From contig JAAYUD010000071.1 in the NCBI GenBank assembly GCA_012517855.1, positions 1 through 58,766 of the forward strand: a DNA stretch of 58,766 nt. The letters run 5' to 3'. The notes beneath the pieces are model-generated. The model was not told the DNA's origin, did not search any database, and was given only the letters and a program-made list of their open reading frames with translations. Positions 21,963 through 23,231 of the stretch are shown here, piece after piece; the stretch's first letter is position 1; each line of letters begins with the position of its first letter. Made by a program: the position numbers and the translations under genes. The DNA comes from Bacteroidales bacterium (GTDB taxonomy: Bacteria > Bacteroidota > Bacteroidia > Bacteroidales > Bacteroidaceae).

Positions 21963-23231
<1,269 letters not shown>

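Follow-up and report, generated by a model that had tools for sequence, protein, structure and literature searches.

A single in-frame TAG interrupts the serine palmitoyltransferase gene of a Bacteroidaceae draft genome

The serine palmitoyltransferase gene (spt) of the strain examined here is interrupted by one in-frame TAG, at codon 164, and is otherwise preserved along its whole length. As sequence the stop is real, and it is ordinary in kind. Its best explanation is in our view a recent true null allele in the sequenced strain, a reading which we judged rather than computed and which we hold to be evenly poised between true and false. A consensus error comes close to it in likelihood. Serine palmitoyltransferase catalyzes the first step of sphingolipid synthesis. 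The window, meaning the whole stretch of DNA analyzed, is the complete contig C20 (58,766 bases) of a draft assembly of 3.64 Mb in 114 contigs that is rated 99.92% complete, and the strain is the sole member of its genus in the genome set that we compared.

Identity of the interrupted gene

Translation of the minus strand from 23147 to 21963 gave a single frame of 394 codons in which TAG occurs at codon 164 only, and the same TAG was recovered when the whole genome was searched (Table 1). The first-pass annotation of this DNA had placed the amber codon at 22656-22658, as codon 164 of a 394-residue protein whose two halves share one frame, and frame translation bears this out. It had also named the gene spt, and the name is upheld by the read-through product, to which the NCBIfam model NF047600 for serine palmitoyltransferase gives 691.4 bits (curated cut-off 640). 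Residues 2-391 of that product align with the solved serine palmitoyltransferases 3a2b and 8guh; from the score and this alignment it follows that the frame did not arise by chance. Read through, the gene is thus like those for Bacteroidota serine palmitoyltransferases in its full-length family match, in its PLP-site residues, and in having the same gene neighbor as in some relatives. It differs from them by the one TAG, which leaves it without a continuous open frame, and we therefore class the locus as an spt gene that is interrupted and does not count as a working enzyme.

Table 1. Positions of spt and of other features in the window
Feature	Position	Strand	Remarks
spt, serine palmitoyltransferase gene	21963..23147	-	394 codons plus terminator; one interruption
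In-frame TAG, codon 164 of spt	22656..22658	-	From frame translation and whole-genome searches
Upstream open frame of spt	22656..23147	-	163 residues; contains His136, lacks Lys242
Downstream open frame of spt, 211 residues	21963..22598	-	Opened by the ATG at codon 184, the first past the stop; Asp208, His211, Lys242
Bacteroides-type promoter-like site	23224..23257	-	Upstream of spt; exact pattern match
Terminator-like hairpin	21904..21940	-	Directly 3' of spt
Lipid kinase gene (DAGK_cat, YegS_C)	23360..24256	+	Divergent from spt
Interrupted sigma-54 activator gene	34344..35576	+	TGA at 34665-34667; separate from the spt locus

The promoter-like site lies about 76 bases ahead of the spt start codon; its pattern, presumably the Bacteroides promoter consensus, has 10 matches in the window where 2.9 are expected, and none of 100 shuffles reached 10. 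The terminator-like hairpin is a weak sign, with one found against a mean of 1.2 in shuffles. The lipid kinase gene adjoins spt in two of the three relatives examined (G031 and G036), and aspS directly follows spt in G031 and comes after a further distance of about 3 kb in G036; in the third relative, G008, neither gene was found within the 60 kb taken around spt. A constraint test of aspS drew on six orthologues only and was uninformative. Elsewhere in the window, the genes clustered at positions 12058-17641 include one for an OmpA/DUF3575 protein and two whose products match DUF6562.

State of the gene and occurrence among relatives

We compared spt with 78 distinct orthologous sequences of near full length and at least 60% identity, none of which contains a stop codon. 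Lys242, His136, Asp208, and His211, which we take to be PLP-site residues with Lys242 as the PLP lysine, are identical in all 78, in agreement with the earlier statement that Lys242 is kept. Mean identity to the orthologues is 0.711 before the stop and 0.726 after it, the gene departs from them at one of 82 invariant columns (Asp127 to Glu), and no further lesion, whether gap or second stop, was found across it. A long-decayed pseudogene is out, given the absence of further lesions and the equal identity on either side of the stop. Since the gene shows no other decay, the stop is either recent or an error, and the state of the sequence is compatible only with a very recent pseudogene or such an error.

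Close orthologues (E 1e-159 or better) are present in 46 of 61 genomes, that is, this one and 60 relatives, and the stop is found only here. Among the Bacteroidaceae genomes surveyed, 241 of 249 contain spt, and by hand count of the 150 matches listed this gene is the only one with a stop, the other 149 having none. The eight genomes with no match at E 1e-100 are 90-97% complete, and some of these absences may be gaps. In genus g24, half of the eight sampled genomes (G071, G099, G121, and G130) lack an spt match at this threshold, which hints at loss of the gene within the genus, with gaps again possible at 90-97% completeness. No report announcing natural or spontaneous loss of spt was found in the titles and abstract openings of a mostly non-subscription literature. 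Excerpts of a study of P. copri describe one SPT candidate per genome and place the differences in later steps, not in loss of spt (PMC10865984).

These comparisons also bear on the idea that the two open frames yield two pieces which cooperate as a split enzyme. The ATG at codon 184, 19 codons past the stop, does open a frame of 211 residues; however, the pair would be missing residues 164-183, three of which are invariant in the 78 orthologues, and His136 and Lys242 would be on different pieces. Nor was a split gene seen in the 46 close orthologues or in the 150 matches listed, and we regard a split enzyme as extremely improbable.

The residue replaced at codon 164

The first-pass annotation had proposed CAG as the lost codon, and it is on this point that its reading is not supported: its gene assignment, its frame, its Lys242, and its choice of null allele, sequence error, and readthrough as the live alternatives all stand, but Gln is not favored as the residue replaced. 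Column 164 is variable, with E in 34 of the 78 orthologues, Q in 20, V in 10, T in 5, I in 3, and M, N, and K in 2 each. In a tree of 61 rows the neighbor of this gene is a 26-row clade, at a support of 92/93 that falls short of the starred level; there the column reads E 17, Q 5, N 2, and K 2, so mostly Glu in the near relatives. The other 34 rows read E 17, Q 11, T 4, M 1, and V 1, and all 11 Q rows among them fall in one more distant group. Glu is therefore favored over Gln as the residue probably lost, with Gln possible. Because position 164 is tolerant, it is the truncation that matters and not the identity of the residue.

Readthrough and recoding of the TAG

Stop-codon recoding and amber suppression are known from some phages and bacteria, and the present case is like them in having a TAG inside a coding frame. 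It differs from them in that one such TAG only was found in what was surveyed, that no suppressor tRNA was found among 52 tRNA matches, and that TAG is normally used as a terminator. Our tRNA search scored 150 of 208 first-look candidates, leaving 58 unscored, and gave 52 matches; ARAGORN read no CUA anticodon at loci covering all 52. Neither an Ala nor an Ile tRNA is among the matches, which shows the set to be incomplete. Terminators were counted for stop-to-stop frames of at least 300 codons in 791,285 bases of the genome, and the 361 long frames end in TAA (221), TAG (82), or TGA (58). TAG is not depleted, as recoding would have it, and is an ordinary terminator in this genome; our scan for broken frames yielded a single inner TAG that we took to be genuine, that of spt. 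A change of genetic code is not supported, and recoding or suppression of TAG was set aside on the content of this incomplete tRNA set and on the terminator use.

Contig C41 (L148) holds two atypical tRNA matches, at 134-206 and 4454-4537, among genes that are phage-like by eye. Its 84-base match (43.2 bits) was considered as a suppressor and rejected, as ARAGORN never read CUA there: at default settings it reported nothing, allowing an intron gave GTA, and relaxing the settings gave TGT.

Readthrough or suppression frequent enough to supply full-length enzyme is compatible with the sequence as leaky termination, and almost any inserted residue might serve at a column that takes at least eight. 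We nevertheless consider it improbable, given the 82 long frames that end in TAG, the absence of a CUA anticodon from the 52 tRNA matches (with the unscored candidates and missing Ala and Ile tRNAs as above), and the absence of any stop at position 164 in the 78 orthologues.

Other nonsense codons in the genome

The contig carries another conserved gene that is interrupted, by a nonsense codon which the first-pass annotation did not mention. It encodes a sigma-54 activator with Sigma54_activat, AAA lid, and Fis-type HTH domains and sits between pdxA-like and lptE-like genes, with its nonsense codon about 12 kb from that of spt. Matches to the piece downstream of its TGA occur in 40 of 41 genomes, a count that includes the present genome. 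In the 19 relatives read, the position of the TGA is occupied by Gly (14), Lys (4), or Asn (1), and at the 125 columns invariant among them the gene shows no departures. A third case is a TGA at 196-198 of contig C11 (L181), in a gene for an ABC transporter ATPase, where it falls just before the ATP-binding loop and 196 bases from the contig end. The interrupted ATPase is one of 37 ABC matches in the genome.

Other stretches of the assembly totaling 731,019 bases were scanned for broken frames, and no interruption there was judged genuine, in hand-picked stretches and at a recall of 86 of 200 simulated stops. Of six scan candidates, three (L156, L167, and L196) came from these stretches and were by eye ordinary intergenic gaps, and in a first scan six of eight candidates were normal gene borders by the same means. 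None of the 68 TonB plug matches in this genome contains a stop. Two of 34 histidine-kinase matches had an inner TAA that translation showed to be the genes' own ends. Nonsense codons are few in the surveyed sequence, and two of the three lie on the spt contig, one of them being the reason that this window was studied. The MutY frame is intact and lends no support to a mutator arising from a MutY defect.

These cases bear on the rival reading, in which spt is intact in the cell and the stop comes from faulty consensus or assembly, or from a minority variant in a mixed sample. We think that this may well be so, if with somewhat less than even confidence. It would explain a gene that lacks any decay apart from the stop, in a family where spt is near-universal and the 149 other matches listed carry no stop; the sigma-54 activator of the same contig is likewise interrupted with its invariant columns untouched, and the third nonsense codon sits at a contig end. 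Against it, the genome shows no general excess of such stops, neither in the TonB plug matches nor, within the limits of recall and choice just given, in the 731 kb of other stretches, and the spt stop lies in the middle of a 58.8-kb contig.

A possible recent null allele and its predicted consequences

For the preferred reading, a recent nonsense mutation carried in spt by the strain, we infer a stop base that is real in vivo, pieces without activity, and a cell without these lipids. Translation would end at codon 164, giving a 163-residue piece that lacks the PLP lysine. A second piece, perhaps started at codon 184, would be without residues 164-183 and without a portion of the active site. 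With no working serine palmitoyltransferase, the cell should lack 3-ketosphinganine together with the dihydroceramides and complex sphingolipids derived from it.

Several findings count for the null allele. The spt model has one match only in the genome at E 1e-100, and the next best match to the protein is 34% identical and is taken not for a spare copy but for a putative glycine C-acetyltransferase, a related enzyme. An aminotransferase-family match on contig C101 was also rejected as a second spt, being by eye a probable histidinol-phosphate aminotransferase. The single stop comes with no other lesion and is a codon that normally terminates genes here, the assembly otherwise looks good with its TonB plug matches free of stops, and no match to spt was obtained in eight of the 249 Bacteroidaceae genomes. 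Loss of the gene is moreover tolerated in cited mutants. Excerpts of the published reports describe an SPT-null B. thetaiotaomicron as viable (PMC9278070) and an SPT mutant of that species as depleted of all sphingolipids, with identifiable lipids down 60% (PMC10056535). Excerpts of a report on P. gingivalis describe a viable spt deletion with a doubling time of 4.4 versus 3.9 h, in which long-term survival is poor and surface polysaccharide is reduced (PMC5126122).

Counted against the null allele are that a single base is exactly how a consensus error would look, that two nonsense-hit conserved genes share one contig and the third case is only 196 bases away from the end of its contig, and that loss of spt costs fitness, as in the excerpted account of the P. 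gingivalis deletion (PMC5126122). The spt-less genomes, at 90-97% completeness, may owe some of their absences to gaps, and the inositol phosphate synthase frame of this genome is intact.

The predicted outcome of the null allele is the same as in the laboratory nulls (the B. thetaiotaomicron SPT mutant and the P. gingivalis PG1780 deletion), namely no serine palmitoyltransferase and no sphingolipids. Those are deletions, whereas here one codon is concerned, in a wild draft genome. We tentatively suggest that sphingolipids are naturally absent from this Bacteroidaceae strain and that it lost several conserved functions (spt, the sigma-54 activator, and the ABC ATPase) through single nonsense mutations, a proposal that we hold with somewhat less confidence than the null allele itself.

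Neither a null allele nor an error requires a new mechanism. If the stop is an error, it shows how a single base can mislead a prediction of lipid output made from a genome. If it is real, the strain is a naturally occurring null for lipids that shape the envelope and host immunity, and it warns against equating presence of the gene with production of the lipid.
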